The notes under the pieces: model-generated
The model's input: the letters and a program-made list of their open reading frames with translations, nothing else
Told to the model about the DNA's origin: nothing
The model's database searches: none
In this document: in pieces, positions 2,424 through 28,841 of the stretch
Numbering within the stretch: the stretch's first letter is position 1
Layout: each line of letters begins with the position of its first letter
From: Clavelina lepadiformis
Taxonomy: Eukaryota > Chordata > Ascidiacea > Aplousobranchia > Clavelinidae
Direction of reading: 5' to 3'
DNA length: 64,000 bases
NCBI RefSeq assembly: GCF_947623445.1
Contig: NC_135243.1
Span: 8,930,501-8,994,500 of the forward strand
Program-made: the position numbers and the translations under genes

Positions 2424-3576
2424 ATGAAGGCTCATGGAGTCTATGTTTTCGTACTTGGAATGTTTGCCTGTTGTTTTCGCCAAATGCACTCCTTTACCCG
2501 TTAGGTAAGTTTGGTGGCTGTACGAGTCAAAAAGTGTACGAATGATAACTCTTATGAGTTAGGTAGATCCAAAATACACTCGGAGATCACAAAAAACAAC
2601 TAAGTTAAAATTTACATATTAACACACTTAGACAAAATGTAATATCACGCGTAATAGGCGTATAGCTTACGATTAAAACAAAATTTTGTGCCCGATAGCA
2701 AATCTAGCCAGTTATAAGTTAGTGGTCAACAGTAGATACTTTGATATGTCTTCAAAGCATGCAGACATCCTGTGATAAAATTAAATTTATTTCGATTTCA
2801 TTAAAAGGGCTGGGAGCACTGGCAGGAAAAATTTAACTTAACTCAAATCGGTCGAAAACAACTCTTCATGTCCACTATGAATAATGTCGGCTCAGAGAAT
2901 GGTAGTTTTCGTGGAGAGTGGTTTTACGGAGAACTTAGGCCTTAGGGTAAGTCAACTATTAGATAAACATGTAAGTTGGGTATCTTAGACTACGCAAAGG
3001 TTTTCTTTGTTGTGGGATTATGATAAAAATTTAATTTTGCAAAATCTTGGAAGCTTAACGCATTTCGATCATACAGGCTCGAGACAGGGCCATGTTTTAC
3101 AAAATAGCCAGGGCTGATTGCGTCGTCAGCTTGATACGAGGCGGGCCGATCAACCTCTATATGCTTAAACCACACACGGTTGGTTTGACGAAGACCACAC
3201 TTGGAGGTCGTTTAACCGGAGGCTTTGTCTTTCATGGTGCCCCAGATTAATGAAATAAACGTTTGATTTAGGTTTCGTTTCATAGAAAAATGATGATTTT
3301 AGATTTATCGAATAGAGCAATAAACGAAATATCACCCATGCAGTAAATTGAATGCACAAATGTCGATTTTATTCACTTTCTACGCAATTTTATTGCTATG
3401 GAAGTTCGTGCTTTCACACATCCCGCAAGATACGCACTGTTCAGTGTGGTTACTGTTCCAGCGATTACTATGGGTGACATTCAGTTCGGCGACAGAGATG
3501 AACTTGTTACAAGATTCTGGGAGCATGGAAGAATCATTAGAAGATTCACAACTCCGTCGGATCGCAACTCATAAAG
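2424..3576 (+). pseudogene. Decayed secreted cupin-like gene, copy A1
   Basis: First of four tandem paralogues and the closest relative of copy A2 at 9979-11123. Recognisable blocks are a signal-peptide exon (2424-2504, MKAHGVYVFVLGMFACCF), exon 2 (2818 to about 2946, EHWQEKFNLTQIGRKQ and RGEWFYGEL), exon 3 (3077 to about 3246, ADCVVSLIRGGPINLYML then LTKTTLGGRLTGGF) and exon 4 (about 3392-3576, RYALFSVVTVPAIT then QFGDRDELVTRF and IIRRFT). Three signs of decay are visible. In the frame conserved in the other copies, exon 1 and exon 2 run into TAG just at their donors (about 2502-2504 and about 2943-2945). Exon 3 has no GT donor at the expected place. No AG acceptor precedes exon 4 where A2 has one. 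It could still be transcribed with shifted exons, but a pseudogene is the simplest reading. Confidence 0.65.
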
Positions 3577-5850
3577 AAACTATCTTTACTTGCTCTTATT
3601 GCCAGGGTTGCCATCGGTCTCAACTCAAAAATAAGGATGACTAGGAAACGAAAGACGAATACCACCTTAAACAGTGCACAACCGGAGAGAGCAACCAATG
3701 TTCTTAAAAAAAAACAAGACATTATCTGCATGTTCTTAATTTTGGTATCTCTTTGTTTTCATAAAACATTTGTTCTCACATGAGCCAGTTCGAATACATG
3801 GATGTTTTCTTTCATTGTTTCAATGATTTGACTTTTTTATGAGGAAGAATTGGCGATTTGTAATTGACGTATATATTTAGTCAAAATGCAAAGTCATCAC
3901 AGCAAGCCAAAATGAGAATGGCAAAAAGCAAGCCCAAAGAAAGAAATTTTTCGGCGTTTCTGCACAAACTACAAAACACTAGAAACAAATATAAGACTTC
4001 ATGATTTTGTATTTTGATTATGAATGGACAATATTTAAGACAAGTAGATATCCCATCATGAAATACCACCAGACGGAATGCATTACCCTTGCGTCAGTAT
4101 AATTACAAGCAGACACGAAATTAGGTATATAAGCTACATCGAGTGGGTGACAATAATGCATAATAAAGTTTCGTGTAATATCACTCTTTTAACTTTTGAT
4201 CAAAACGTTATAAAATGACTATACGGCACACAATGGAGATCAATCATTCTGTCGTTGACGGTATAGTTGACAAATGTTAAAGGAAATAACAAAAACGTCT
4301 TTTACGACCATATTACAAAACCTGAAATTTTCGTAATGCCGTAGATTTGCTGCAAAGATTTGTGGTGCAAATTGTTGTGCAAGCGAAAAATTGAATTACT
4401 ACGATCTCATTAATTTCTACTCTACGGTGCAAGCATGCTTTTCTTCTGTATTACGACTTTTCGTTTTCACCATTTATCTTGCTCATTATTAGAACAACCG
4501 CTTTCGTCGTCAAATTTCAATAAACAGGAATAACTGTTAATAGCATTGGTTGTTTCGTACTGTGTAGGTATATTCACTTGTTGTAGGCCTGTTGTTAGTC
4601 ATAATAAAGTCGTCTCTATTTCTTTTAATTGACGAAGCGCACTTAGTAATTGGCAGTCGGGGGTGGCTCAAATTTTAAATTGTCAATTTTAACTCAGCTG
4701 TCTGTAAATTGTCACAACCAATTAAGTTATGCAGATGTTTCATCAAAAGACAATTTAACCTTTTGAAGCACCATAAAGCCAGACCAATATTTTATTAATA
4801 AACGTTTACCCCCCTAACCAGCATGATGTTGAAGATACTTCGCAAAACTTTGCAGGTCATGCTACACATTTTACGCATCATAGTAGATTTCTCAGACATA
4901 GTTCTCAAGTTTAAATGAGGGGACAGCATTAACATACATTTTGAAGCTTAACATATTGTTTACCAACAGATGAAGATTTATTTTTGAATTGTTATTTGCA
5001 TGTGCACTTTATACTGTTTAAGGTTTATCAGTCAAGCATTTAAAAACACATCATTAAAAGTTTATTCTTTGCCAATTCCATCCCGAGACGTTTTCTAGAT
5101 ATGGCTCAGAACCACGCCGTTAGTTTGTCTAACGTTGACGTGTATAGCCAGACATGCGTAAGTGGTCGGTCAGACTATTTTGCTTGACCTAAGATGGACT
5201 GCATATTTAGACCAAAACAGGAAAAATCCATTTTCTTCGATCCTAAAATGGGTCAATGCATAGACATACACTCTTGCACGCAAATTTTTCTTCTCAACTC
5301 TATGTTAAGTTAATTGTTTTTGTATAGTTTGCGTTTCTAAAAGTTAGGACTGATATCAACACATAAGTAAGCAACAACAATAGCAAGTTATAGATAAACT
5401 TTAACATAAGATTTTATCATAACAAACATATACTTGAATCTGTCATTTGTTTTGTATTTTATTTCAGCATGCCCAGTTTTAACAAGATGAGTGGCGCATG
5501 TTTGTTGAAAGTGTTTGATATGAGTTTCATGTTTATAAACACAGCTCATTTTATTAGATATAGTTTAATAAAATCCACATATAATTGACAGATACTAATC
5601 TGCTTTCTTCTTTATGTAATAATTCTATAAAAAAAACTCACTTCTCCGAAAAGAAATTGCAATGTAAGTGCTTATTATGACGTTTGTCTAATTAAACTTT
5701 AATCAAACTTCTATTATCAACAAAACTTTAAAGAAGATAATAATGTTGTCGCACTTTTACACTATGTCTCTGGTCGTCTGACGCAAAAGGTAAATTGCAT
5801 TGGGGCGATTACAGACTTTGGCGTGATATAATTTCAGTGCCAAAACACGC
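3577..5850. other. Intergenic between cupin-like copies A1 and B1
   Basis: About 2.3 kb, AT-rich, with no recognisable coding similarity on either strand and no clear repeat ends. Confidence 0.5.
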
Positions 5851-5859
5851 TTTATATAG
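5851..5859 (+). promoter_or_regulatory. Possible TATA box of copy B1
   Basis: The string TTTATATAG lies about 100 bases before the ATG of copy B1. It is the only TATA-like string close upstream. In AT-rich DNA this is weak evidence. Confidence 0.3.
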
Positions 5860-5951
5860 ATCATCGCTAGTCGCACGGAATAGCAGGCGTGCCGTCTTTA
5901 AGAGTCTGCACTTACATTCGTTGACTGACAGAAATTGCTGATCTTTGTACA

Positions 5952-7020
5952 ATGAAGTACTTTCGCATACTCTTTGTAGTGGTTTGTTGCGTTTTTGTGG
6001 AAGGAGGTCTGAACGATGCTCTCTATCCTCCAGCATCAAGACTGGTAATAATAAAAGTTAAATAGTCTACTGTTGGCTAATAACCTGGAAACAAATTGTG
6101 AAATACTTGCTATTTTATGAGCACTTAGTATTTACAAAATTTCTTATATATACGAAAAAGTTAAGCAATGTAAGTTTATTTGCTTGTGGTTACTTTTTCA
6201 GTTAGCCCCGTACTTCAAAGAAAAGTTTGATTTGAGAAGGTCATATGGCATTGAAGGGCCCCATATTTCCAGTGTTGTTAGTTTTGGTCATTTGCTGCCT
6301 ACCGGGCTTCGGTCTGGGATTGGATCAGGTGGCACGAGACATACAGCGTCCTGGATGCTGGAACAATACGCGGTAAGACCGCTCTAGGTTGTAGGATCTA
6401 AATAAAAAATTATGAAATGTTAAACAGTGCGGTATTAGACAATACAAACGTTAACGTTAAAAGTTCATTGAAAGTCAATTTTTTCAAAGGTGAATGAAAC
6501 GAAGAATTTCTGTAGTGTGCCGTCCGTCACAGTTTTCAGCCTTCTTCGTGGAGGCCCAATTGACATCCACATAATTGACCCCGAATCAGGAGACTTGACG
6601 ACAAGAACACTGGGACCGAAAAATAGGGATGGCTTTGTGGCGCAAATACCAGCAGGTAGTACAACTCATGACAACTATTTTTGGTAAAATTTCTGAAAAT
6701 TTTTCTTTTGCCTAATTTTTGTTTAAGTTCAGTTCGAAATGGATTCCTTAAAACATTTATTTAATACATTTATTTAAACTATGTACAAAAAGTACTGTAG
6801 GCTTATACTAAAATAACTTGCAAGTATTTTTTCTATTATAGGACATTATTCTGCTTTCAAAGTAAGGAAAACGAAACGATACCCGTTTCGCTTTGCTCTG
6901 TTCAGTTTAGTCTCTTTACCCGAAATGATGGAAGGGGACGAATCATGTCCGAGGCGGGCGGAGCTGTTGAGCAAATTCCCGCTGCGAAAACGACTCATCA
7001 CGCGATTTACTAACGAGTGA
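5952..7020 (+). CDS. Secreted cupin-like (DUF985-type) protein, copy B1
   Basis: Four exons (5952-6044, 6202-6372, 6490-6655, 6842-7020) with GT-AG introns give a 202-residue protein. It begins with a hydrophobic signal peptide (MKYFRILFVVVCCVFVEGG). Exon 2 gives LAPYFKEKFDL and GIEGPHISSVVSFG, which I align with the EGGYFRETYRS region at the start of Cupin_5/DUF985 proteins. Exon 3 gives VFSLLRGGPIDIHIIDPESG, matching the family's GDPLELHLLDPDG strand and turn, then VAQIPAG, matching VVPAG. Exon 4 gives FRFALFSLVSLPEM and RRAELLSKFP, matching CTVAPGF and DREELLARFP. The family's usual H in the WHRxxxDEIWHF segment is absent, so metal-dependent catalysis is doubtful. Intron phases (0, 0, 1) match those of A2 and B2. 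The fold call is mine from pattern reading; the function is unknown. Confidence 0.7.
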
Positions 7021-8458
7021 TTGACTGTAAAATTTATTTTATTGTCTTGTTTTACTTCGCATATTGTTTGTAAAAACAGATCATCTGTATGGAAGCAAAG
7101 ATCATAACGACAAAATGAAATAAAAGATACAAGCACAATATCTTTAGTTGCATAGATCATTTTTGTTATGACCTGCATGCTTGTGTAGGCTACTAACTAA
7201 AGGAGGTATAGATGTATGAGCAATTCTAAACATAAAAAAAGAGAAATGTCAAGTGTAGGATTAAAGCTTGGTTTAATTTCTTAATTCATAATACAGTATA
7301 AAATATATATACACCCAAAATATTGCAATAACCAATACACAAAAAGTCAAAAGATTTCAACTCACATTATACCATATTACTTTAAGGCAACAATTCAATA
7401 ATTTATCTATATAAGCCGGTTTTAATATTTCATGAAATATTTGTATTGAGTTGTATCTTGTAAGCAAGTCTACATATGTTATTGCAGGTTTGTGTAAGCA
7501 ATTGATAAGCCTACTTAACTTTTTATGAAACATCAATCAAAAACGTTTACATCTCTTGTGTTTAAATGCATATGCATCCAGAACCACACACGGGTCAACA
7601 ATCACTAATATATTTGCCTAAATTGTTGGTTTTACGTTTATACCACGTTTTGAAGTTAGGAAGTAAAACATTTCTAATTCGATTGACGATTGACATTGTT
7701 TGAGCTAATGGATATTTGTTGTTTAGATTTCATTTTAATTACTGACGAGTATTTTTCGAGCTTCTGTAATTAAGCAATGAATGCTTCAAAAATCTGAACT
7801 AAAACTGGTAAAACTGTATTCTTTATGTATGTATAAAAGCAATCACTAAAACTAAAAATTTATAGAATTGAAATTAATTAAGATTATTGCAGGAAAAATT
7901 ATATGGCTATATTGTAACAATTTCAATCACCGAATACGTAAATTTTCTCTTCCTAATCAGCTTTTTCGTGCTTTGTGTTGTCAAGAAAATAGACAGCTTG
8001 AAACATAAAGCAAAGTTGTTAAGCAGTTTATTGTGTACAAAGCACCAACATTAAAACACCCTTTAATTTTTAGCTTCTTTTCTGATTTTATGACTCAGCG
8101 TATGTATATAAATAAATTTAACGAGGTAATTAACCTATTGACTTGTAATGACTTGTTCCAATTAAACGGTATAATACGTGACAAAGGCCAAAAAAATATT
8201 TGAAAAAAATGTTTCTTTGAAAAGAATGACATGTGTAGAAAATTAAATCTTTAACGCGAAAAACATGTTAAACCATTTTTTTGTTGTTGAACAAACTGAA
8301 ACGTTTGTTACGAGCGACTCATATATCTGATAAGTTAAAGTAAAACTCGCATTCTTTATCAATCCGGAAGCCAAATATCTTCATGTTTTGAAGTATAACA
8401 AATATAAGCAGTTATGGCTTATAACATTATTGCTCTTAAATTTAAAATTGACAGTGAT
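7021..8458. other. Intergenic after copy B1
   Basis: About 1.4 kb of AT-rich DNA holding the 3' flank of copy B1. I see no gene, RNA or repeat boundary in it. Confidence 0.5.
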
Positions 8459-9160
8459 GAATTAAATAAAATAAAATTGATAGGGATAGTGATGAAGACT
8501 TGTGAAAAAGTTGTCACAAGTGACATTATAGTCACGTTTGAAAGTCCGTTGCATCAGCTGCGTCACGGCGTATGTCGCCAGCCTTACAGAAGCATCTCTG
8601 CTCTCATCTTTCCCCAGATATGGAAAGCTATTGTAGAGATATTTTGTCTTTGCATCAACTGCCATCCAGAACTTGATTCCAAACTTGTCAGGTTTATTCG
8701 GCATGTATTGAATAAATCTGCATCTAGCCTTACATGGAAGTAGTTGTTCGTCAATTGTAAGCATTAGGCACATATGCCCTTTTAGAGTTGTCAATAGAAG
8801 GTTCTACAACGAGGAAACTAAGCAAAAATTGTCATGTATTACCCGTTGCCGCCTTTCACTCTTCACGTCGAAACGTGAGAAACGCATTATTTCCTTGAAT
8901 CTGTGGCTCAATGGAGTTTTGTTGAACATCTTACACCCCCAGACTGCCTTCCACAAACTTTCCACTGGCAGACTTCTCTGTTCTAATATCCCTCTTGCAA
9001 TAACAAGTCCAATAAATTTGTCCAGCTCATCAAGTGTCACATCCCAGTTCATTCTGCCAGAAATGCGTTGGGCTTCAGATACAGTGCATTTTCTTATATT
9101 TCTGAGCATTGCCTCGTCAAACAAAACACAAAAAATGACAGTGGGCTGCTTTCAATGATT
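8459..9160 (-). mobile_element. piggyBac transposase remnant
   Basis: Minus-strand frames encode the middle of a piggyBac (DDE_Tnp_1_7) transposase. The first part (9124 down to 8804) has SGRMNWDVTLDELDKFIGL and SLPVESLWK. The second (8794 down to 8462) has LTIDEQLLPCKARCRFIQYM with the first catalytic Asp, KPDKFGIKFWMAVD, FPYLGKD, and VTCDNFFTSL with the second catalytic Asp. The two parts are in the same frame with one in-frame stop between them near 8804. The N-terminus, the third Asp, the C-terminal cysteine-rich domain and any TTAA-flanked ends are not recognisable, so this is a dead internal fragment. Confidence 0.85.
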
Positions 9161-9420
9161 CTGCCCAATGCAAATGCAAATGCAGTTGGGATAGGCTTGA
9201 AGCTCTGTATGTTTTGCTGTTGCAAGCACCTTAGTTGCACATGAAAAATGGTCAAAGCTTACCAAGCTGTTCCGTCTTTTCCGATCAAGTCCTCATTCAC
9301 TCGCACTAGATTCTGGGTATTGCTGATTATCACGTTGTTCCATTTTTTCACGTTGTAGTGATTCTATAGATTGCAATCACACCATCCGTAGACTCAATAT
9401 GAGGTTTTATGCTGTGTGGG

Positions 9421-9624
9421 TCAATTGACGAGCTTGGTCGTTCCAGGTAGACATATGCTTAAATTTGCCGTTTTAATCGTAAAATCCCCATTAGTCAGAC
9501 AAACTGAGCGTTGTAAGAAATAAATAATTGTCAAGAAGTTTCAGCATAAAAAGGTGATGCTCGGCGGAAATACAAGAAATTGAATACTTTAAATGTGTCA
9601 ATTGACGCGCTTGGTCGTTCTAGT
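9421..9624 (+). repeat. 26-bp direct repeat pair
   Basis: The 26-mers at 9421-9446 and 9599-9624 share 24 bases (core TTGACG, A or C, GCTTGGTCGTTC). They are 178 bases apart, just beyond the N-terminal side of the piggyBac remnant. They could be subterminal repeats of that element or an unrelated short repeat. Confidence 0.6.
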
Positions 9625-9978
9625 GTAATGAAAACATTTTGATGATTTGTTTTGGTAGAATGATCGACGTTTGTACGTATTCGCTATCAGATTTATACAA
9701 GACGAGTAATTTCGACAAAATATCATCATATCGTGCTTTTGAGAATATTTTAAACATGAGCATTCTCAAATAAGGCAAGGCCGAAAATAACCATAGCTGC
9801 CAGCTTCCATCAAACGTTTTGCTTTGGCACAGTTCTTGTGGGCTAAACGTGACGTGGTAAACTTTTTATTAAGTTTCGTGGAAAAAAAGTCGTGTCATAT
9901 TCTCATATAACAGAATATCTCTCAGAACCGTATGTCATTTAATTTCTGATTTGTCAGCTTATCGTTGAGAAGAAAACA

Positions 9979-11123
9979 ATGAGAGGTTTAATTTTTTGCT
10001 TCGCTCTTTGCCTTTTGTGTATGCATGGACTGTGCCAGGAGAGAAATTATTTGGTAAGTTGAATACTTTACGTTAAATTTTGGAAACCTTTATTTAATAA
10101 ATTTAATTTCACTTGTATTTCGGTTAGCTGATTTTCATTTTATTTGAACGACAACTTATTTTAAACAGATATTAATTTTTTATAATAATTGTAAATTTCT
10201 ACGAAAGTCATAGTTTTATGCAATTTTTCTTCCGTAATTTTTAAGTTGTATTATTTCAAACCACTTTGATATTTTTGTTTCAGAAATCGGACCATTGGAG
10301 GGAAAAGTTTGGTTTAACTCAGATAGACCGGAGACAGGTGTCCATGTCTTCTATGAAGACAGTTGGCTCGAAAGACGATCAATTTAGTGGACGATGGTTT
10401 TACGGACAAATAACGGTGCATATACATCTCTATAAGAAGTATTATGCGGTCTCATTGTCATACAGCAGTGCAAAATAATAAATATTACGGTTCCTTAATT
10501 TATATTGATTCCAAAATTGTAACCAGACTGTTTCAATGCTTCCAGGGCCGAGACCGCACTCTCTTCTACAGAGTATCAAACGCAGATAGCGTGCTTAGCC
10601 TCATTCGGGGCGGTCCGATAAACGTCTACATACTCAATCCGTCGTCACGTGACCTGTCCCAGTCTGTTCTAGGCGGCCGAACCAGTGGCGGGCTGGTTCG
10701 CTTAGTTCCAAAAGGTGAGATTAATTAACTGTCATTTTTACATCTTTCACTTATCTTTTACTCAAAGTGTGAAGTGAATTTGTTAAAGTGGTATGCAGAA
10801 GTATTACTGTGAAATGTTTTTAATTTTGCAGCCTTTCTAGTTTTAATTTTTTTGTCTTCGTGTTAGCATAAGCGCTTTTTTCAAATATTAACTTTAACTG
10901 CAAATTTTTTCTTTACATATTTGCCATTACAGGTAGTTATCTTGCGATTGAGGTCCGAGCCTACGACGACCGAGAACGGTATGCTCTTTACAGCATCGTC
11001 ACTGTTCCGGCAATTACTCAGGATGACATTGAATTCGCCGATCGAGATGAACTTCTTGGCAGATTTAGAGAGCACGGAAGAATCATCCGGAGGTTCACCA
11101 GACCCTCTAGCAGCTCGAAATAG
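9979..11123 (+). CDS. Secreted cupin-like (DUF985-type) protein, copy A2
   Basis: Four exons (9979-10053, 10284-10415, 10546-10714, 10933-11123) give 188 residues without interruption. The signal peptide is MRGLIFCFALCLLCMHGLC. Exon 2 (KSDHWREKFGLTQIDRRQ, then SGRWFYGQIT) differs strongly from the B type, while exon 3 (SVLSLIRGGPINVYILNPSS) and exon 4 (RYALYSIVTVPAI, FADRDELLGRFREHG, IIRRFT) keep the DUF985-like barrel and C-terminal motifs. The position of the usual metal-binding His reads FYRVSNADS, with Tyr in its place. The exon 2 donor would be GTGCAT, which is weak; a different exon 2 end is possible. Copy A1 is its nearest relative. Secretion is inferred from the signal peptide; the function is unknown. 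Confidence 0.7.
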
Positions 11124-14100
11124 ACAGAAATCTTCGTTTTTCTCTCTCACGGAAACTTATAGCTTGCAAAATTAAAGACTTCTTTTAAACGATATTTACT
11201 TATGATTGTTGCGTTTTGTATCAATTGGACTTTGTTCATATGAAAGCAAATAAAAGTTGATGTTCTGAATGAAACAAAAAAGTTGTTTGATTTGTGAGGC
11301 AAGTGGTTTTACAGAAATTCTGTTAAACGCATAAATATATTAAATTAAGTGCAGCAAATTAAAAATACAGGGAAAATATTCAACGGTATTAAACTCCTTA
11401 ACACTTCGTTCATTTGGAAATAGATTTTTGTATAGTCATGGAGATAAACGAAGTCGCATTGACTCGAGTTACGTTTTGAAAAGACTTGACTTGACTCGAT
11501 TATATTTTCCTAAGAAAATCCATATAATTGTCTTCATTAAAACGATGAAAACAATTTCCTTTATTTTGTTCAAACACATTAATGTGTAGGTATAAGAATA
11601 AAGTTTATCTATAAATATACGTGTAAGCTAATTACTTGAGCAGCTATAAAAAACAAATTTTTGTTGACAGAAACAATATATTTTTGCTTTCTTTCAGGCT
11701 TTGCTTTAAATATCAGTAGGTCTAACTTCACTCAAATCTTTTCTACCAAAAGATTCGATATGACTTGCGACTCGAGTTTGACGACTTTTTCACGACTCTG
11801 TAGATGAATAATGTGATTTTTAATAAATATAACGTATATATATCAGCAAAAAAGATTGCGATACGCAGCGGAATAAATCGTCATGCTATAAATGCTTAAT
11901 AATAGTAATTTTGGCACACTGAAAAACATTATAGTGTAATTGCAACTTTTTTTCCGTTGCTAATTTTTTGTACGTCCTGTGCTAATTTTGTTTTGACATT
12001 ACCGCAGCAAATAAAAAAAAAACCTTTAAAACAAAGATTTAGATTTTGAACGTACATAAAGAGTAATATCATCTGACGTAGCAAAAGTTTTATCAGAAAT
12101 ATATTTACAGAACGTTGGTATGAGCATGTCTATAATTGGTTCCTGGTTTTATTTATCAGACGTTATGCAATCATGAAAAATGAAATGTATAGACTGTATG
12201 TGGCTATAGAGTAATTTCACAATTCGCGAAGCAATGTGCGAGAGTGGACGTTTTTGTCGCGAAATTTTTGTCCCAAAATATTTTTGTCTAAAACACCTAA
12301 GCGTGAAATAACAACAGACAGATAGGATTTTTTGTTTGCAGTTTTCGTCATAACGACACGATATTCATGTTGAAAGGACGGATAAAATGTTAACTCGCTA
12401 ATACACCTTGGAAACAACTCAACATGCTGTACATGAGTAAAATACTATCGCGTGATTTTAACAAAAACATGTCAAAAATGTTGTCAATTTATTCACGTAG
12501 GTGAAAAGCCGTGATATAACTGTCATTAATCAAGCGAAGAAAATCGTAATAGCATCACATGATCGCTAAACACGTGGATTTTCGGGCACTTTTCCAAAAA
12601 CACATTTTAAAAGACTTTCCTTTTAAAGTAGAAAAAAGGCAGAAAATCTAACGTTTGGTTTTGTGGAGATGAGCTTTTGTGCACGAATCAATTGCACGTT
12701 TCATGGGTCCCGACAGTGTCGTGCCATCGCGATGGTTTAACTTTTCTCCTTCCTGCCCAGCTTTCCTTATAATATTAGAAACAGTAATTAAGTATGTCAC
12801 GCGAGCTGTTTTATTCGGAGGTTCTGTAGACAAAACATTTCAGGCCACAACATCAAACATGCAAGCTTGCTATTAAACAAAATAAAAAATTTTTAAAACA
12901 TTTTACTAATTTGCTACGTTATAGTATAACGTGTGTAACGCATTTGCAAATTTATAACAAAATAATTTTGTTATCAGTTTTATTTTTTGGTAATTAAAAT
13001 TAAGCTTTTTGTTGAAAAAAATTAATCCTGCTTTGTTGATTGGTTACAAATAAATCTGAAAAATATTTTCTGGAAAAAACTTTCTGCCTAAAAAACATTA
13101 TACCGTAAACTTGCAAACAAATGTTTGTTGAAGTATCAATTTTCATTTTCTGAACTCGGCTGGACGTTAACGTGTTACGTAGTGATCTGAGCTTTTCCGT
13201 TGCGTCATGACCTGTCTCGAATTTAACATTTGAGAATTCTTAAGTCTTTGGACGAACTCCAACGATAACAAGTCTTTTGGTATTTTCTAAACGTCGCGCC
13301 AAAATTTGAGAACATGAAGGAAATGACTTTTTTTGAGTTTCCAACTACAAATAGAACTACAGAATAGAACTAAATAAAGTAAAAGACATCTACTGGCCTT
13401 TTTAATTACCCAACGCTTATTTACATTAATATAATCAATCAATATATAAATGTTGATTCTAATTTAGTAAAATTCTAAATAACTTCGAAATGCAGTACAG
13501 TACTGTAATTACTTATTGTTGTGTACATTTCAATTACAGCTTATAAATGACATCGATAAAAGTTAATTTACTGTACTTTAAGCTAAATAAAGAAGTTAGA
13601 TCTTTTTCTGTTTACATATAAGGCTATCATATAAACAAGGCTAACATTTGACGTACACTCGACCACTTTGTCTTGCATTTCCAAAAATTATTTCACGAAG
13701 TTTCAACATCGATATTAGTTGATTGATTGTTTTAGCAACACATGATATACTAAATATTTTTTAGGCATCTTTTTAGTCATAAGATAATTTCATAACATTT
13801 TCACCCACCATGATTTGGCGGGCGTCTAGCTTTGATTGCCAAAGCTTCTGATCCAAAAATAAATACTAGCCAAAACAACTTTATCTTTTTTGCGGCTTAG
13901 AACTTAATTCATGACAGTTAAGACGTTTCTTTTTACACTCGCGAACCAGAAAATATTTTGATATAGGATAACTTTTGAGATTGTAACACTTTTTGCGTCC
14001 AATACTTTAATGAATTTTATACAAATATTTCCAAAAATCTACATGCAAATTTCTGCAAACTTTGGGCTATAGCTGTCAGTAAAAAGTCATAAGTACAATA

Positions 14101-15060
14101 TTTTGTTTCAAACTATAACACAAGCTGGTGACCAGGTCAAAGTTTTTTTTGTAGATTCAATCAGTTTTCCAGCGAAATGGAGCACGATATGTCATAATTG
14201 TTTGTCAAAATTTTGTTCACTGTTAATCAATACTTCCTTGTTAAAATCGGTTGGATTAAAAATTACACATTAAATTTCGTCAGCTAATGATTAAGATATT
14301 AAAAAGTACTGTAACAGCAAACTTTTAACTATACTTCATTTCATTACATTTTTTAATTCGCTCTTCAAAACATGTTTGTGATAATTCCCAACTTTACTCT
14401 ACTGATGTATAACCCGTGTTAATGATAAAGATGCTTATTTACTTGACTCAGCAGCCCAGAGTTTGGCACGAAATTCTAAATTACATATTAAGGACAGTAA
14501 ATTTGCAAGTTTTCTGACAAAAATAAAATCAACTGCTGAGTTAAATTTTATACCCAACTTTTTCCATGCTAGATGTTCACTGACAAACTTGAGCTTATAT
14601 GGAGCATTTTCTATATATAGCGTGTAAATTTCTGCAGATAAATTTATATACATATATATTACATATGTTATAAATTTCAAGAAAAAAAAGCAACGAGTTA
14701 AAGATTCTGCTTTACATGTGTGGATACGTAAAGCATGACTACAGTGTAAAAGCATTCTTACTGTGACAACGTATTTTCCCCAATTTTTGATGCCACTTTC
14801 CCTTATCACGACTTGTTACCATATTGGGAACTGCTTTATCTTACACAACACCACAGTAAGCAAAACGATCAGTAGGACTTCCATCTTTATACAGAGAATA
14901 CAGTTTTATGCCAGATACTTGTAGTTTGTGTCACATGTCACGAGCTGTTAATCAGGCGTGATCTGCTATTGTCATTTTTATAAATTTTGATGAAATGGCT
15001 AAAGAAGAAAGCTCAGCAAACTCCATCACAGTGAGAGAAAAAAGTAAAGAAAGTAAAGCC
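11124..15060. other. Intergenic between copies A2 and B2
   Basis: Almost 4 kb without recognisable genes. An ATTAAA-like signal about 50 bases after the A2 stop could end that transcript. The longest open frame (14435-14809, minus, 124 codons) resembles nothing I know and has AT-rich, background-like composition. Confidence 0.45.
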
Positions 15061-15068
15061 TATAAATA
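15061..15068 (+). promoter_or_regulatory. Likely TATA box of copy B2
   Basis: TATAAATA lies 62 bases before the ATG of copy B2, at a distance typical of a TATA box with a short 5' leader. Confidence 0.5.
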
Positions 15069-15122
15069 TAATAAGAGCTTGCGCATATTTTCCGGCAGAC
15101 AAATCAGTTTTTCTCTGGCAAA

Positions 15123-16096
15123 ATGAAGACTATCTTAGTTTTGTGCCTTGTAGCGCTGGCAAGCTTGGTACCTGGAAATGTTGGCCAAGATCGAACCCTC
15201 ACTCCTCCTCCTTCAAGGCTGGTGAGTGGAACTTGAGAATAGAAACGTTTTCAGCTTTTAATATTTTTTTAATGAGTGCTACTAAAGACTTAACTTTTTC
15301 ATGTTTGCACATGCAGCTTGCTCCATTCTTCAAAGAACGGTTTGGTATAGACCAGGTCCTTGGGATCGAAGGTCCCCATATTTCGGAAATTCGCAGCTTT
15401 GGTGAATTTGTAACTGGCGATCTTTCGGATGATTTTGATGAAAAAGGACCCCGTCGCAGTGGAGGCTGGTTGTTGGAGCAATTTGCAGTACGTCTATAAT
15501 TTAGTTTTTAATATACATATTTCAATGTGTTTCATCTTTGTATAAGCAGACCTTACATGTGTCCAGTACAGCAGGTGTCCATTTATTTCAGTATGCTTTT
15601 TGATATCTAACCTTGAATGTTAAACTTCATTATTATTGATTTTAATTGTAGGCAGGGGAAAAGAAGAACTTTTACAGCTTCCCAGCTGTCTGCGTGTTTA
15701 GTCTACTTCGTGGAGGACCCATAGATATTCATATAATCGAACCTGTAAGTGGGGAACTGACAACCACAACATTGGGAGGTAAAAAAGACGGCTTTGTTGC
15801 AGTAATACCAGCAGGTAAGCATTTTGATATAAAAATAATTAAACAACAGCCAACCAGATTAGCGTATAAGATAAACACAAATAACTGATTAGACTCTTTC
15901 TCTACTTCTCATTGAAGGACACATTTCCGCTTTGAAAGTGAGAAAAGGCGATGTGTTTGATTTCCGCTTCGCGCTATTCAGTTTGGTGACTACCCCAGAG
16001 ATAAGAGCAGACGACTTGAACTTCATCCGTCGCGACGATTTGTTACGAAGATTCCCGCAGCACCGAGACAAAATTATAGCATTTACCGACGAATAG
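15123..16096 (+). CDS. Secreted cupin-like (DUF985-type) protein, copy B2
   Basis: Four exons (15123-15221, 15317-15487, 15652-15814, 15918-16096), all with good GT-AG sites, encode 203 residues. The signal peptide is MKTILVLCLVALASLVPGNV. Exon 2 carries LAPFFKERFGI and GIEGPHISEIRSFGEF. Exon 3 carries FYSFPAVCVFSLLRGGPIDI, HIIEP and TTTTLGG, then VAVIPAG. Exon 4 carries FDFRFALFSLVTTPEI and RRDDLLRRFPQH. The last motif and VIPAG match the DUF985 signatures RxELLARFPQH and VVPAG well, which is the best support for the cupin assignment. No His remains at the barrel's metal site. It is nearly colinear with B1 and shares its intron positions. A TATA box lies upstream and AATAAA is at 16192. Confidence 0.75.
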
Positions 16097-16594: not shown

Positions 16595-19099
16595 TTATAC
16601 TACTGTTTTTCGAGCCTTAGCAAGCGCGAAATCTTCGATCATGTCAGTGCAGTCAAGGCTGCTCAGCACCTCATGTTCAATGCTCATAAGCGCCAGCATG
16701 TTTAGCCTTTCCTCCCTCATCGAGGACCGCAGCTCTCCTTTGACTATTCCCAGTTTTGAGAAGCTCCGCTCGCCGGAGGCATTAGACACCATCAAGCACA
16801 GATAGATGCGCAAAGCAATCTCGACGTTTGGAAATGTTTGAGAAAGGTTCAACGACGACAAAAGCTTGTACATGGTAAGCTCTGCTGACTCGTTCACACT
16901 CACCGATTTCTGGGTGCGCATAAATGCAGCAAACTGTATGAGCTCAGCCACCAGCGTGTCTTCCAAGTCATCTGGATACGAGGAAACGAGATTTTGAGCT
17001 TTATTCTCGATCTGCTTTATGCTCAATGACGTTAGCTCCGAAAGAAATCCGAATGTTGTAGATATATCCTCATACGCCTTCATTCGCTTTTCCAGTTCAG
17101 CTAACAGTCTGTCGATCATGACCAGATATATATGGGTTTTGAATGTTTCCCTAGGGGTGAGGTTTTCTTCGTTTGCAGCTCCTTCATCAGGCATTCGCTT
17201 TCGCTTACGGCCTCGACGTTCTTCAGCCTTGTATTCGCCGTGAGGAACCTTTTCGATCGCCATCTGCTCATACACGTCAAATCTGTCCCGTGCAAATTGA
17301 ATCGTGTCGACCAGTGATGCCAATAAACTAGTTGCCGTATTCAGACTGACTGTAGGGTCTTGGAGGCTAATGCTCGTACTGTTGAGACGGCATAGGATAT
17401 CGTTCCAGGCAGTCGCCATAACTGCTGTCTCAAGTTCGTCCATCCTGCGCGAAAATCCGTCGGCCTGGTTTCTCGTATCGGCCTTCTGCTCCTTATCTGC
17501 CGCAAGCTCATCCAGGACTTCTTGAATGCTCTTCCACCCTTCTACTAGCGCTTTGACAGCATCTGCACGTTCACACCATCGGGTTCCAGACAAACCTTTG
17601 AGCGTTAATGTGCAGCGATTCTTCAGTTTCTGCCAGCGATATGTCGATTCAGACAGGAAAACGTATAGTCCATTGACAAAATGAAAAAACCTGGTACAGC
17701 CAGCGCAGCTATTAACAGCCTGGTCTCCTACCAGGTTTAAACTGTGGTTGCAGCATGGAATAAAAGCAGCATATTTACATTCTCGCTTCACAATTGCCTG
17801 GACACCGTTGTACCGTCCTGACATGTTTGACGCATTGTCATACGACTGGCCTCTGCAGTTAGTAACATCCAAGCCATTTTCCTTCAGAAAGTTCAGAAGT
17901 ATGCTAGCCATGTGCGTAGCGGTGTGTCTCATCATAGGCAAGAATGTCAGGAACCGTTCAACTGGACCCAACGGCAGAACATATCGAATAACAATCGTTA
18001 GCTGGTCGAGGTGTGATACGTCAGGTGTAGAGTCAATCGAGACAGAGAAATACTTCGCCTTCTTGGCTTCTTTCAGGATGGTGTCCTGCACCTTTTGTCC
18101 CATGAGCTGCACCAGCTCCTCGCAAATTGTGGATGACAAATAAGAAATGTGACCTTTCCCGCAGTTCGCATATTTTCTAATATGGCTAGCCAGCAGAGTA
18201 TCGTACTCCGCCAACAACTCAATGATGCCAAGGTAGTTACCATTATGAGGGGAACCTATGATCTCATCCGAGCCCCTTATAGCAAGGCCACGCTTAGCTA
18301 GGAATATCAGAACGTCGATGAGCCGCTTTACAATCTGGCGCCAGTAACACCGCTCTTCCTCGACCTGTTTAGCGGCTAGGTAGTCAACACGACCGGCCTC
18401 CCTCTGTCGGCTCGCAAAAGACAACATAGCCTTGCGATGACCATCGCTGCTTTCATGGATTTTTATTCTGGATTCGCCTGTCCTCCAATTGTCGAAACCG
18501 CCGGATACGAACTTGGTTGCTTGAACAGCATTACCACCGAACAACTTGCATGCAAAGCAGAACACCTTCCCGGTCGAAGGCGAGTAGCACAACCATTGTC
18601 TATAGGATTTTTCACCATTGAGCGGATGCGTACGCACGAAGAAGGTCTTAGTGCATCGACGTTGGAATGATTCACCTAGGTATTGTCTGGCGCTCTCTTC
18701 AAACATCGATTCAGTGTGTTGGCAGTGTTTTGAACCTTTCTTGGCCCAATATTCTCGAGTGTCAGCGTTGATTTTACCCCACTGTCCTAAATCATTGGTG
18801 ATATCCTCCAGCGTTTGCGCCAGTGCTTCGCCAGTGATAGCGTCTCCTTTCACCTCTGCTCTCTCCGCTGAACTTTCCCGCTCTTTATCCTCTCTTTCCT
18901 CATCAGGTTCATCTTGCTTGGCCTGGTCTTCAGGAGCGCTCGAATTCGCAATCGCATCCGACGCAGGCAATTGAGACGAAGCTGCTCGCATTCCAAAGTA
19001 TGAACTCAGTTTTGGAATTTTCGCCAGAAGCTTTTCTTGTTCTGCTGCTTCTTTCCTTTTCTTTTTCGCTTTATCCCATCCACTGAGTTGAGACGCCAT
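16595..19099 (-). CDS. hAT transposase with TTF-type zinc finger (ZMYM/ZNF862-like)
   Basis: Uninterrupted frame of up to 839 codons. The frame opens with an ATG ending at 19114, but I prefer the second Met (19099), giving MASQLSGWDKAKKKRKEA, a typical start for these proteins. After a charged, low-complexity stretch (to about residue 110) comes a TTF-type zinc finger (about 155-235) with FCFACKLFG, GFDNW and a final HESSDGH. The DUF4371/RNase H-like core has SIDSTPDVSHLDQLT with the first catalytic Asp (about 360) and GQSYDNASNMSG with the second (about 425). The C-terminal hAT dimerisation region has NASGERSFSKLGIVKGELRS with the catalytic Glu (about 790) and ERLNMLALM. All hallmark residues are present, so it may be functional. 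It belongs to the element at 16251-20668, not to a host pathway. Confidence 0.9.
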   Translation of the reverse strand: MASQLSGWDKAKKKRKEAAEQEKLLAKIPKLSSYFGMRAASSQLPASDAIANSSAPEDQAKQDEPDEEREDKERESSAERAEVKGDAITGEALAQTLEDITNDLGQWGKINADTREYWAKKGSKHCQHTESMFEESARQYLGESFQRRCTKTFFVRTHPLNGEKSYRQWLCYSPSTGKVFCFACKLFGGNAVQATKFVSGGFDNWRTGESRIKIHESSDGHRKAMLSFASRQREAGRVDYLAAKQVEEERCYWRQIVKRLIDVLIFLAKRGLAIRGSDEIIGSPHNGNYLGIIELLAEYDTLLASHIRKYANCGKGHISYLSSTICEELVQLMGQKVQDTILKEAKKAKYFSVSIDSTPDVSHLDQLTIVIRYVLPLGPVERFLTFLPMMRHTATHMASILLNFLKENGLDVTNCRGQSYDNASNMSGRYNGVQAIVKRECKYAAFIPCCNHSLNLVGDQAVNSCAGCTRFFHFVNGLYVFLSESTYRWQKLKNRCTLTLKGLSGTRWCERADAVKALVEGWKSIQEVLDELAADKEQKADTRNQADGFSRRMDELETAVMATAWNDILCRLNSTSISLQDPTVSLNTATSLLASLVDTIQFARDRFDVYEQMAIEKVPHGEYKAEERRGRKRKRMPDEGAANEENLTPRETFKTHIYLVMIDRLLAELEKRMKAYEDISTTFGFLSELTSLSIKQIENKAQNLVSSYPDDLEDTLVAELIQFAAFMRTQKSVSVNESAELTMYKLLSSLNLSQTFPNVEIALRIYLCLMVSNASGERSFSKLGIVKGELRSSMREERLNMLALMSIEHEVLSSLDCTDMIEDFALAKARKTVV

Positions 19100-19492
19100 A
19101 GCAAGCGTGCACAAAACGCAGCTAAATTTGTAAATTGTGGAACCGTAAAATTTATCGCATTAACTTGAAATCTTCCGTTACAATAAACACAACGCCGTAT
19201 ATTTAGCCTACGTCACAGTGCAAAAAAAAAACATTAGCAATTGTCTTAGAATTAAGGCAGTCGCTAGCGTCCAAGTGAACCCCAATGCTTTCCATCATTT
19301 TTTGTTATAAACTGACACTGGTTTCCATCATTTTTTGTTGTGAACCGGCAGTTGTTTGCACGGTGTTAGCTTGTGAATCGGCAATGAAACAACATTGAAC
19401 TCAACAATAATGATTGCTAACTCTTTTCCCAACCATAATGAGCACTAATCTTACTGCCTTAACCTAATCTATTCCTAAGGCTTAGCCTAACT

Positions 19493-24960: not shown

Positions 24961-27776
24961 CCGCACTTAAGGTGGGTTATTTTGCACTTAATGACTTGAT
25001 CAGAACTTCTGTGCACTTCTTCACTGTATCTTGAGCTTTTTTGCACACCACACTTTTTGTTTGCTTGGTGCACCCAATATCTTGCTGAAATTGGCCATAC
25101 TCTGTAGTCCAACCAGTATGATAGCCTAGTTCAAATGTTCAACTCATTTTATTTCAAAATTTTATTTTTTCTCAACATACCAGATAAAATGCTCTTAGTC
25201 TGAATTCTCGCTCACGCTCCATATAAACTAAGCTTAGTGGAATTGGTGGCAGCTGCATATGCATGCAGGAGATTCATCAATATGATGCACACCGATATTT
25301 TTATCTTCACAATGATTTATAGTAAACAAACGTGGAAAACCTGGTTGTTTAAACGCCAATATATAATAAATTTATAAACAAACAATTGTTGCTTTGTCAA
25401 ACTCCTGTGCTTTCCAGTCGGGTGCTCGCAAAATATATATTATATATATATTATATGTATGTATAGTACATACAATTTTTTGATATATATTTACTTGCAA
25501 TACTCAGACTAAGCCCGTATTTGATACCCAGTGGCGCAACCATTGTAATTAATAACTGGGTTACTTACACTTACACTCCAACTTTTAATAAATTATTATT
25601 TAGTAATTCCTCATCGGTAATCGGGGCTTGGACTACGAATTATCACCAAGTTGAAGGTGTGCATTCAGAGATTTTATTAAGCTGGATCTCTTATACTTTT
25701 GCAGTCTGACTTGAAGGCCTAAATGGGAAGGAGTTGTAAAGTAGAAGAAAATAAATTATGATATAATAATTTCTCAAAACTCGATCCTGATATGAGAGTT
25801 TGGTGCAAGAGTAAAAGAGACTTCTTAAGCTTAGGCCTAGTCTGAGTAAAACATTGTGATACCATACAACCTTAACTTTGTATTGACTGGTCCCAAGCCA
25901 ACATTTCGTGTAATGTGTTGCAATTGTGCACACATAACAAGTATGCCAAAGGCTGGCTATGTCAACTGCAACTTTTAAAAAAGAAACTGCACTCTTTTTT
26001 GTCTAAACTAGAAGAAATAAAGTTGTCAGCCATGGTTTTGATACGGTTGCGCCAAGACACGATTTGTTTTGTGCCACATCCAGGTTAAATCAATTTACCC
26101 CACTTGACTCTAGGTCACACCAACGATCTTCAGCAAAACTTAACTAGAATGCTTCCTGGTAAGCCTAGAATGCAGGGTATGGAAGGTAAAACCTGAGAAA
26201 TTTTTGTCAAAACTGCATTGCCTACTGACACACCAGTAGGTACCATGGTTTGCCCATTTTAGCGGGGAATATTATTCGGCCTTTAGTGAAGTGAAGCATC
26301 TTTTTTGTTGTTCTTACTACTAAAATGTATATAGTTAAGATAACATACTCTACCAATCCTGTTTCGGCGATAGTGCACACTATTCCACAACTTGGAAAAA
26401 ACTAGTTAAAAAGCACTTTCTCAATCCTGGCTTCAGCCGCAGTGCACACAACTTAGTGAATACTGGCATACTCTGCAGTTGTGGAAAATGTGGAATATGT
26501 ATGTACGAGACTCTTCAACGTGTGAGCCATACTTTTACGCGTTCATGGTTTCATTGCACGTCATCACGTCTAACATTGTGTTTTTGCTGTTGTATATACT
26601 TAATTTGTTTTGTTTAGTGATATGTGTAGCTTTGTGAAACAGACATTCAAACCTCAGCTCTACAACATTTAAGTTTTCAAGTCTGGAATACAGCAAACAC
26701 ATTATGCCTAATGCCCGTATCAGTTATCGTAAACACCTTTATAAGGTAAACATACACATACTTCATTAATTGATAAAAAGATTTTTTACTAAACAATTAG
26801 CAATTGTTTACACCGCAAAAGTATTATTAAGCTAATACGAAAATGATTGTAACTGTAACTAAGTGGTTACTAAGTGGTTTTCAGCTCTTTTTGCTTTGAT
26901 TATTTGCTGTTCTGCAAAGAATATATCTTTGGTTTTGTTTAAATTCCTTGATTATGAAACCAAAGAAAATAATATCCATAAACAATAATTTTAAATCAGA
27001 CGACTGAAGTGGGTTTCATATGTTGTTGTGATGGTCCTCACATAATGTTGGCTACTGATATAATCCAAGTAACGCTTTCCATTTTATTTGTTTGTCCTTT
27101 GTAGCATTATTACGCAATCATATTATATTGTTGCACTAATAAACATGGCAGCGTCAAGCAGGTGTTTTGCTGTCTTAAGACGCACAAATTATTGTAGAGT
27201 TCAATTTAGATCATTTTGTTCTTCAGTTAAATTTAACAAATTTTGCAATCAGCGGTGCTACCTTAAAGTCCTTGTTACTGTATTTACTAGCATAGTAAAC
27301 CACTGTACCACAACATTATTAATTTAATTTCTGACATAACAGACGCCTAATTCGCTTCACATGTATAAAAGGACATTGCTTTGTAGCTAAGTTTGCTACT
27401 GAAAGAATATGCATTGCATTAATTTTTGTTTTGCAATGTATTGTATATACATTGATTATTTCATTACTTAAATACTGGTAGCTCACGGTTACAATAAACT
27501 ATGGATATAGCATACATATTTTCAAATATCCAGGGTGACCATTATTACAAGGTTCGACTGTATATATACATATTATAGGTTTATAGTATGTTTTTTATTT
27601 CTGTACCTGTCATGTTTTTGTTATCTATTTCAATTGTTTATAAGCCTATCCAACTTAATAGCAGTTTGTACTAGTAGCCCTATATTAGTGTATCAATTTA
27701 CTATAACTATGGCAAATTTTATTAAGTTTTGCAAACTAGTCAATAAAAATAGCATATTTGATTTTTACTGTTAACC
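24961..27776. other. Intergenic before TMEM30
   Basis: About 2.8 kb with AT microsatellite at about 25428-25466 and a loose pair of similar 25-mers near 26355 and 26422 (CAATCCTG...AGTGCACAC). No gene is recognised. Part of the TMEM30 5' UTR or an upstream non-coding exon may lie near the right edge but cannot be placed. Confidence 0.4.
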
Positions 27777-28841
27777 ATGCCTGGACCAAGTTATGATGTA
27801 ACTGATGGCGCAGATACAAAAGTGCCAGAGTCAAAGAAACCAGACAATACAGCATTTAAACAGCAAAGGTTACCTGCCTGGCAACCAATTTTAACTGCAA
27901 AATCAGTTTTGCCCACATTCTTCATTATAGCAATCTTATTTATTCCCCTTGGGGCTGTATTTCTGGTAACTTCCAATTCTGTCATAGAAGTGTCTGAAGA
28001 GTACACGAATTGCTTTTCTCTGGAAAATCCGAGCATGACCTGCAGTATATTTCGTGGCAATTCTACATTTGCACCTGAACAATGCACATGCCAAATGAAC
28101 ATAAATGTCACTTCAGATATGCAGGGTACTGTGTATGTTTACTACGGCCTGACCAATTTCTTTCAAAATCATCGGCGTTATGTGAAATCGAGAGACGACA
28201 TGCAACTTGTCGGCGAGCCCACCACTGTTAGCACAGTGTCATCAGATTGCAGCCCGTTTGATAAAGTTACTGAGCTACGGAATGGAGTAAATGTTACACT
28301 CCCAATTGCTCCCTGTGGAGCGATTGCCAACAGTCTGTTTAATGATACATATACTTTGACAAAGCCAGATTCAAGCTCACTGAACATTTCTCGAACCGGA
28401 ATTGCTTGGGACACTGATCATACCTTAAAGTTCAACAACCCATGTGATAACCTCACTGAATGCTTTGAAGAAACAGCAAAACCAGTTTATTGGCAACGAT
28501 CCGTGATACAGCTTGATCCTGATACTCCAGACAACAATGGTTACAAAAATGAGGCATTTGAGGTATGGATGAGAACGGCAGCATTTCCAACATTTCGAAA
28601 ACCTTATGGACGGATTGTCGGAGGTTTGCCTGCTGGAATTTATAATCTGACAATAAATTATACATATCCAGTTGCTGAATTTCATGGAACAAAGCGGTTT
28701 ATTCTGGCAACCACCAGCTGGATGGGTGGAAAGAATAATTTTCTTGGAATTGCATATATCACAGTTGGTACATGTTCATTTGTGGTAGCTATTGCTCTCT
28801 GCTTTTTGCATTACTGCTCAAACCAAAACAAAGTCCATTAA
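27777..28841 (+). CDS. TMEM30A: TMEM30/CDC50-like flippase beta subunit
   Basis: CDC50 proteins pair with P4-ATPases, help them leave the ER and are needed for lipid flipping across the plasma membrane and Golgi. This 354-residue protein has the usual size. A cytosolic N-terminus (1-43) with AFKQQRLPAWQPILTAK is followed by TM1 (about 44-66), a large glycosylatable, cysteine-containing ectodomain and TM2 (about 322-344). Family signatures are IPLGAVF, YYGLTNFFQNHRRYVKS, PCGAIANSLFNDTY, WMRTAAFPTFRKPYGRI, LPAGIYNLTINYTYP and KRFILATTSWMGGKNNFLGI. The start is the first ATG of the frame (context AACCATGC). The frame is a single exon, unlike the multi-exon vertebrate genes. TMEM30A versus TMEM30B cannot be decided from one sequence. 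Confidence 0.95.
   Translation: MPGPSYDVTDGADTKVPESKKPDNTAFKQQRLPAWQPILTAKSVLPTFFIIAILFIPLGAVFLVTSNSVIEVSEEYTNCFSLENPSMTCSIFRGNSTFAPEQCTCQMNINVTSDMQGTVYVYYGLTNFFQNHRRYVKSRDDMQLVGEPTTVSTVSSDCSPFDKVTELRNGVNVTLPIAPCGAIANSLFNDTYTLTKPDSSSLNISRTGIAWDTDHTLKFNNPCDNLTECFEETAKPVYWQRSVIQLDPDTPDNNGYKNEAFEVWMRTAAFPTFRKPYGRIVGGLPAGIYNLTINYTYPVAEFHGTKRFILATTSWMGGKNNFLGIAYITVGTCSFVVAIALCFLHYCSNQNKVH

Follow-up and report, generated by a model that had tools for sequence, protein, structure and literature searches.

The question raised by this locus is what four neighbouring genes of a sessile chordate encode and how two types of them came to alternate. The genes lie in a 64,000-nucleotide stretch of Clavelina lepadiformis DNA (NCBI RefSeq assembly GCF_947623445.1, contig NC_135243.1, positions 8,930,501 to 8,994,500 of the forward strand), which is called the window here and in which position 1 is the first letter. 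The + strand of the window carries four related genes in a row, designated A1, B1, A2 and B2. Our analysis pairs A1 with A2 and B1 with B2, and suggests that the array encodes probably secreted proteins distantly related to the Cupin_5 (DUF985) family, most of whose usual pocket residues have been replaced.

Gene models and pairing of the array genes

An earlier note, made from the sequence alone, had described four related genes on one strand, of two alternating types and with the same exon structure. The gene models, a nucleotide self-comparison and a tree bear out the related genes and their alternation; the common exon structure holds for B1, A2 and B2, whereas in A1 just homologous blocks of it can be recognised. 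The genes and their exons are as follows.

2424-3574, + strand: A1 (whole), remnant blocks of four exons
2424..2504, + strand: A1 exon 1 remnant, signal-like segment with an in-frame TAG at its end
2808..2945, + strand: A1 exon 2 remnant, in-frame TAG at 2943-2945
3077..3245, + strand: A1 exon 3 remnant, donor after the exon missing
3386..3574, + strand: A1 exon 4 remnant, open to its own stop, no acceptor AG within 35 bases before it
5952-7020, + strand: B1 (whole), intact gene model
5952..6044, + strand: B1 exon 1, signal-like segment
6202..6372, + strand: B1 exon 2, GIEGPHIS, glutamate at the column of Cff1p E44
6490..6655, + strand: B1 exon 3, first barrel exon, SLLRGGPI
6842..7020, + strand: B1 exon 4, second barrel exon and stop codon
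9979-11123, + strand: A2 (whole), intact gene model
9979..10053, + strand: A2 exon 1, signal-like segment
10284..10415, + strand: A2 exon 2, shorter than its B counterpart, without the EGG glutamate
10546..10714, + strand: A2 exon 3, first barrel exon, SLIRGGPI
10933..11123, + strand: A2 exon 4, second barrel exon and stop codon
15123-16096, + strand: B2 (whole), intact gene model
15123..15221, + strand: B2 exon 1, signal-like segment
15317..15487, + strand: B2 exon 2, GIEGPHIS, glutamate at the column of Cff1p E44
15652..15814, + strand: B2 exon 3, first barrel exon, SLLRGGPI
15918..16096, + strand: B2 exon 4, second barrel exon and stop codon

Analysis of the gene models revealed spliced open frames of 202 codons for B1, 188 for A2 and 203 for B2, each made of four exons, and the introns of these three genes have GT/AG junctions in phases 0, 0 and 1. 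The motif S-L-x-RGGPI in exon 3 is common to all four genes. A1 is a pseudogene. It is dead because it contains two in-frame stops, TAG at 2502-2504 just before the first donor and TAG at 2943-2945 near the end of exon 2, and because both splice sites of its third intron are gone: a donor is missing past exon 3 (from 3246), and the 35 bases that precede exon 4 contain no AG. The words AATAAA or ATTAAA were found downstream of B1, A2 and B2, and neither was found in the 250 bases past the last exon of A1. TATA-like words are present within 150 bases before the start codons of A1, B1 and B2, A2 being without one; among random 150-base stretches, 303 of 2000 contain such a word.

Nucleotide self-comparison matched the exons of A1 with those of A2 and the exons of B1 with those of B2. 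The sole other matches between segments were 35 bases shared by B1 and A2 and 25 bases shared by A2 and the DNA after B2; no homology from spacer to spacer was found in this comparison. The earlier note had proposed a tree of the copies, and one was built from 30 rows, comprising the four array genes, the structures 3loi and 1xe7, and 24 of the 86 homologues described below. In this tree A1 joins A2 (support 92/76, not starred), B1 joins B2 (99/96) and all four array genes fall together (100/99); its warnings concern long branches (yeast, homologue L108 and amphioxus) and the meeting of long branches, including at the base of the array group. The approximately unbiased (AU) test rejects the placement of A1 with B1 (p 0.000715) and with B2 (p 0.000123). 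Nonsynonymous divergence (dN) in exons 3-4 agrees with the tree pairing, since it is lower within the types (0.325 for A1-A2, 0.334 for B1-B2) than between them (0.54-0.66 for the four A-B pairs). At the level of sequence, the tree shows both the A1-A2 and the B1-B2 pairing.

The simplest account of the order A1-B1-A2-B2 would be one duplication of an A-B unit, as the earlier note had proposed. What stands of that proposal is the pairing it predicts, which is seen in the tree and in the AU tests; the duplicated unit itself is not recovered, the spacers being without detectable homology and the synonymous sites saturated. The proportion of synonymous differences (pS) in exons 3-4 was 0.787 for A1-A2, against a random codon-pair mean of 0.778, and 0.796 for B1-B2, against 0.762. 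The duplication is undated because of this saturation and because the spacers are unrelated. Exon by exon, dN of A1-A2 and of B1-B2 was 0.314 and 0.545 in exon 2, 0.415 and 0.202 in exon 3, and 0.255 and 0.478 in exon 4, and over exons 2-4 it was 0.322 and 0.399; the near-equal values of the two pairs in exons 3-4 are not to be leaned on, and their divergence may be called symmetric only loosely.

Kinship with Cupin_5, the pocket and the leader

Cupin_5 (PF06172) was the top Pfam family for all three intact proteins (E 4e-6 to 4e-5). With a gathering cut-off of 25 bits, B1 (27.3 bits) and A2 (25.6 bits) are above it and B2 (24.3 bits) is below, so the profile search proposed in the earlier note supports two of the three proteins at the threshold of the family. 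No match to NCBIfam was found for any of the three. A profile made from the three proteins found 3loi first in the PDB (E 5.3e-6), followed by 1yud (5e-4), and hhalign against the alignment of 86 homologues gave 98.3% probability and E 1.3e-14 over 189 columns, this being a single comparison with no negative control. The Cupin_5-like kinship claimed earlier is thus upheld as distant homology by Pfam, the PDB profile search and hhalign.

The 86 homologues consist of 80 from genome contigs (the best 80 of 493 confirmed relatives of a Shewanella/amphioxus query), both of two viral-contig loci and four of 54 plasmid records that matched that query, one of the rows (L044) being a fragment. Among the 36 positions that are at least 90% conserved in these homologues, 11 are kept in A2, 13 in B1, 13 in B2 and 26 in the amphioxus protein. 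Conservation counts out of the 86 are inflated, since the homologues are the best matches to the Shewanella query and close relatives are favoured. Judged by these comparisons, the A and B proteins are distant, strongly altered relatives of Cupin_5/DUF985 and not ordinary members, and they are predicted to take a barrel fold. Their likeness to the Cupin_5/DUF985/YML079w-like family, which includes yeast Cff1p (PDB 1xe7), runs along the barrel including the C-terminal stretch and, in type B, extends to the glutamate at the E44 column. Unlike that family, the array proteins have a signal-like leader, their pocket histidine and glutamate are replaced, type A is without the catalytic glutamate, and the genes are four-exon tandem genes.

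The proposed catalytic residue of Cff1p is Glu44, the E of HrEGG, and changing it to alanine leaves less than 1% of the 4-hydroxy-5-methylfuran-3(2H)-one (MHF) activity (PMC8092285; papers given by PMC number are cited here from excerpts). The E44 column holds glutamate in 85 of the 86 homologues and a gap in the remaining one. In all four alignment modes used, glutamate occupies this column in B1 and B2 and a gap occupies it in A2. The corresponding stretch reads IDRRQ in A2 and IGRKQ in A1, whose exon 2 has no EG motif there; neither has a glutamate there under any nearby alignment, though A2 could offer an aspartic acid. GIEGPHIS is identical at 8/8 positions between B1 and B2, while exon 2 as a whole is identical at 26/57.

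Comparison of two further pocket residues revealed replacement in both types. The histidine of FHR, present in 86/86 homologues, is tyrosine in A2, cysteine in B1 and tyrosine in B2, and the glutamate of DE, likewise present in 86/86, is serine in A2, threonine in B1 and cysteine in B2; none of the three intact array proteins has either residue, and the aspartic acid of DE is still present in A2. Such change in the pocket is not unique to the array, since yeast 1xe7 keeps the FHR histidine and is without the DE pair, which is therefore not universal, and since the amphioxus 3loi chain is without the E44-type glutamate, having PHPaSGG in place of PHPEGG and serine at the E44 column. An amphioxus DUF985 protein is in print (cited in PMC8704077), and from that title and the DUF985 entry 3LZZ, which is bound to guanosine diphosphate (GDP), we infer that 3loi/3lzz is probably amphioxus BbDUF985. 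On this link, BbDUF985 would be the closest solved sequence to the array proteins, from a chordate too and also without glutamate at the E44 column. It differs from them in keeping FHR, DE and most of the conserved positions, and in having no hydrophobic leader from chain residue 8 onward, the crystal construct being possibly trimmed.

The N-termini were judged by a hydropathy measure, the best 10-residue mean within the first 26 residues, and not by SignalP. The values were 3.42 for B2, 3.57 for B1, 3.21 for A2 and 2.61 for exon 1 of A1. The 86 homologues reach 1.68 at most, with a median of 0.19; their starts were taken as the first ATG of the open frame and may be placed too far upstream, which affects this comparison. 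The signal peptides of the earlier description are supported as signal-like N-termini in B1, A2 and B2. Past the leader, hydropathy in A2, B1 and B2 never exceeds 2.35; a hydrophobic leader with no later strong stretch fits secretion without a further membrane segment, and the A and B proteins are probably secreted.

A favoured account and its alternatives

We favour an account in which an old animal Cupin_5 (YML079w-like) gene would have gained a signal exon and then split into neighbouring types A and B, after which the A-B pair would have been duplicated into A1-B1-A2-B2 and A1 would have died. The products would be secreted single-domain barrel proteins of about 165-185 residues once the leader is removed. 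With the pocket histidine and glutamate replaced, the usual chemistry of the family would be lost, and the altered pocket would bind a small ligand or another surface outside cells. Type A would be non-catalytic, and type B, which keeps the yeast-catalytic glutamate and perhaps residual activity, is most likely at most partly catalytic. Given the rewritten pocket and the gained leader, the proteins most likely serve in binding, and they would do so extracellularly. Protein constraint is evident in the proportion of nonsynonymous differences (pN), which for exons 2-4 of B1-B2 is 0.31 against a pS of 0.73, and for A1-A2 is 0.26 against 0.78; pN so far under pS indicates that the proteins long did something. 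We give this scenario as a whole, from the gain of the signal exon through the A/B split, the pair duplication and the death of A1 to extracellular binding proteins, about an even chance.

Several points weigh against it. The divergence of A1-A2 and that of B1-B2 are unequal from exon to exon, and saturated synonymous sites and unrelated spacers give the duplication no date. B2 scores under the Pfam cut-off, the hhalign score stands without an unrelated-family control, the conservation counts rest on a set enriched in close relatives, and only 11-13 of the 36 conserved family positions are left in A2, B1 and B2. The amphioxus and yeast proteins also miss such pocket residues, so that their loss in the array need not mean lost activity, and a different chemistry is possible.

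Type B could alternatively still be a secreted enzyme that acts on a sugar or nucleotide-sugar through its E44-type glutamate, as has been proposed for yeast Cff1p and MHF. The octapeptide GIEGPHIS, with its glutamate, is unchanged between B1 and B2 in an otherwise diverged exon 2, yeast MHF production needs E44, and an acorn-worm Cff1p homologue works in yeast, where it complements the mutant (PMC8092285). However, the histidine and DE glutamate that are found throughout the 86 homologues are replaced in type B, and the second glycine of EGG is proline there, and we consider the enzyme reading unlikely.

The consistent difference between A and B at the catalytic position, which extends to the missing EG motif in exon 2 of A1, has led us to weigh a mixed A:B dimer in which the remaining catalytic glutamate would come from B, with A as its pseudo-enzyme partner, the pair being retained for that reason. 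Three structures of YML079-like proteins are given as dimeric (PMC2684688), and the alternation suggests joint duplication of the pair. Against this, the death of A1 leaves two B genes to one A gene, neighbouring paralogues commonly have no joint function, and the upstream regions share no more words than random stretches do. Among the four 400-base upstream stretches no excess of common 8-mers was found relative to random stretches, one 8-mer being present in at least three of the four stretches (control mean 2.08) and 42 in at least two (control 56.2). A mixed dimer appears improbable to us.

The products could also be released cues, or surface or adhesive proteins, of a sessile animal, and as fast-diverging single-domain cupins they would work like the waterborne settlement pheromones (WSP) of barnacles, which are likewise sessile and marine. 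These pheromones are small, secreted RmlC-like cupins present in multiple copies, with 178-265 residues, a cupin_RmlC-like domain only, signal peptides in all but one and few glycosylation sites (PMC8371367), and they are abundant in barnacle canal tissue (PMC6287898). The array proteins likewise have 188-203 residues, one domain, signal-like segments and few N-glycosylation sequons (0 in A2, 1 in B1 and 0 in B2). Nevertheless, barnacles are arthropods far apart from ascidians, the excerpt of PMC8371367 does not state a Cupin_5 assignment, and the likeness is one of anatomy and not of sequence; we regard a cue or adhesive role as quite doubtful. A more specific version is very unlikely, namely that in ascidians an intracellular Cupin_5 enzyme gave rise to two released proteins, B with the glutamate kept and A catalytically empty. 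The two would act together as a mixed dimer in the tunic or outside the body, and might, for instance, signal between sessile animals by water or by contact, a parallel to the barnacle pheromones.

A secreted Cupin_5 protein is known from a fungus. SsYCP1 of Sclerotinia sclerotiorum resembles the array proteins in being secreted, and differs from them in being fungal and in that the other two copies of that fungus have no signal peptide (PMC8704077). The earlier note had regarded animal proteins of this kind in such an array as not known to be described. No secreted tunicate Cupin_5 protein or array was found in the titles and abstract openings of the open-licence literature searched, and to that extent the statement stands; it does not extend to animal DUF985 proteins in general, those of amphioxus, acorn worm and coral being in print together with a secreted fungal Cupin_5 protein and the barnacle cupins. 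For corals, one transcript is annotated as YML079W(-like) (PMC6335708), and in another transcriptome a cupin family, which is not specified further, has six paralogues (PMC3247206).

Copy number, surroundings and meaning of the array

The genome searched comprises 209,060,895 bases in 95 contigs. The B2 protein and the A2 protein each matched it 11 times, always in exons of the four array genes, and no fifth A/B copy was found genome-wide with these queries, a search that scores the best candidates only and thus gives a lower bound on copy number. No further copies were found in the window and 10 kb upstream (best other E 0.28). Genome searches with the Pfam model and the amphioxus protein matched nothing and missed the known array too, and they are uninformative on a canonical Cupin_5 gene. 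Recent transfer from prokaryotes was also considered, and there was no sign of it; ancient transfer is possible. Patterns from the A/B alignment gave 26 matches in genome contigs and 18 in viral contigs, of which none was confirmed, and tblastn of B2 against plasmids gave only two records (E 5, 22.8% identity).

The gene that ends just upstream of the array is presumably ALKBH6-like, Pfam giving no match in the one exon scanned. A broken DDE_Tnp_1_7 transposase remnant in two frames, which we take to be piggyBac-like, occupies 8465-9151 on the - strand, within the B1-A2 spacer. Downstream of it, in the same spacer, is a direct repeat of 30 bases that is 90% identical (9417-9446 and 9594-9623). 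Two long, open hAT-type transposase frames (DUF4371 / Dimer_Tnp_hAT) lie on the - strand at 16598-19159 (854 residues), directly downstream of B2, and at 38141-39946 (602 residues). Decay of the whole array, without current function, would accord with the death of A1, the transposase remains that lie between B1 and A2 and just past B2, and the lack of other copies found in the genome, but it is highly improbable given that B1, A2 and B2 still have unbroken frames (188-203 codons) and correct splice junctions despite saturated synonymous divergence, and that pN is far under pS.

Elsewhere in the window, a CDC50-family gene (E 3e-90) lies at 27762-28838 on the + strand in a single open frame of 359 codons; the part that matches is intronless, and the gene may be a retrocopy or may be intron-free. 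On the - strand, 49342-52756 holds exons of a sodium/hydrogen exchanger, of which 50895-51281 gave a Pfam match and the remaining frames were assigned by eye, and 59077-60957 holds exons of a CP2/GRHL-type transcription factor. No Rfam or tRNA matches were found in the window.

Cupin_5 proteins are widespread yet poorly understood. The array points to an animal lineage in which these proteins appear to be secreted, mostly stripped of their pocket residues, and split by the presence or absence of the yeast-catalytic glutamate. The A/B split offers a natural test of the residues that are needed for Cupin_5 chemistry, and the products of the array are candidate extracellular proteins of a sessile chordate.

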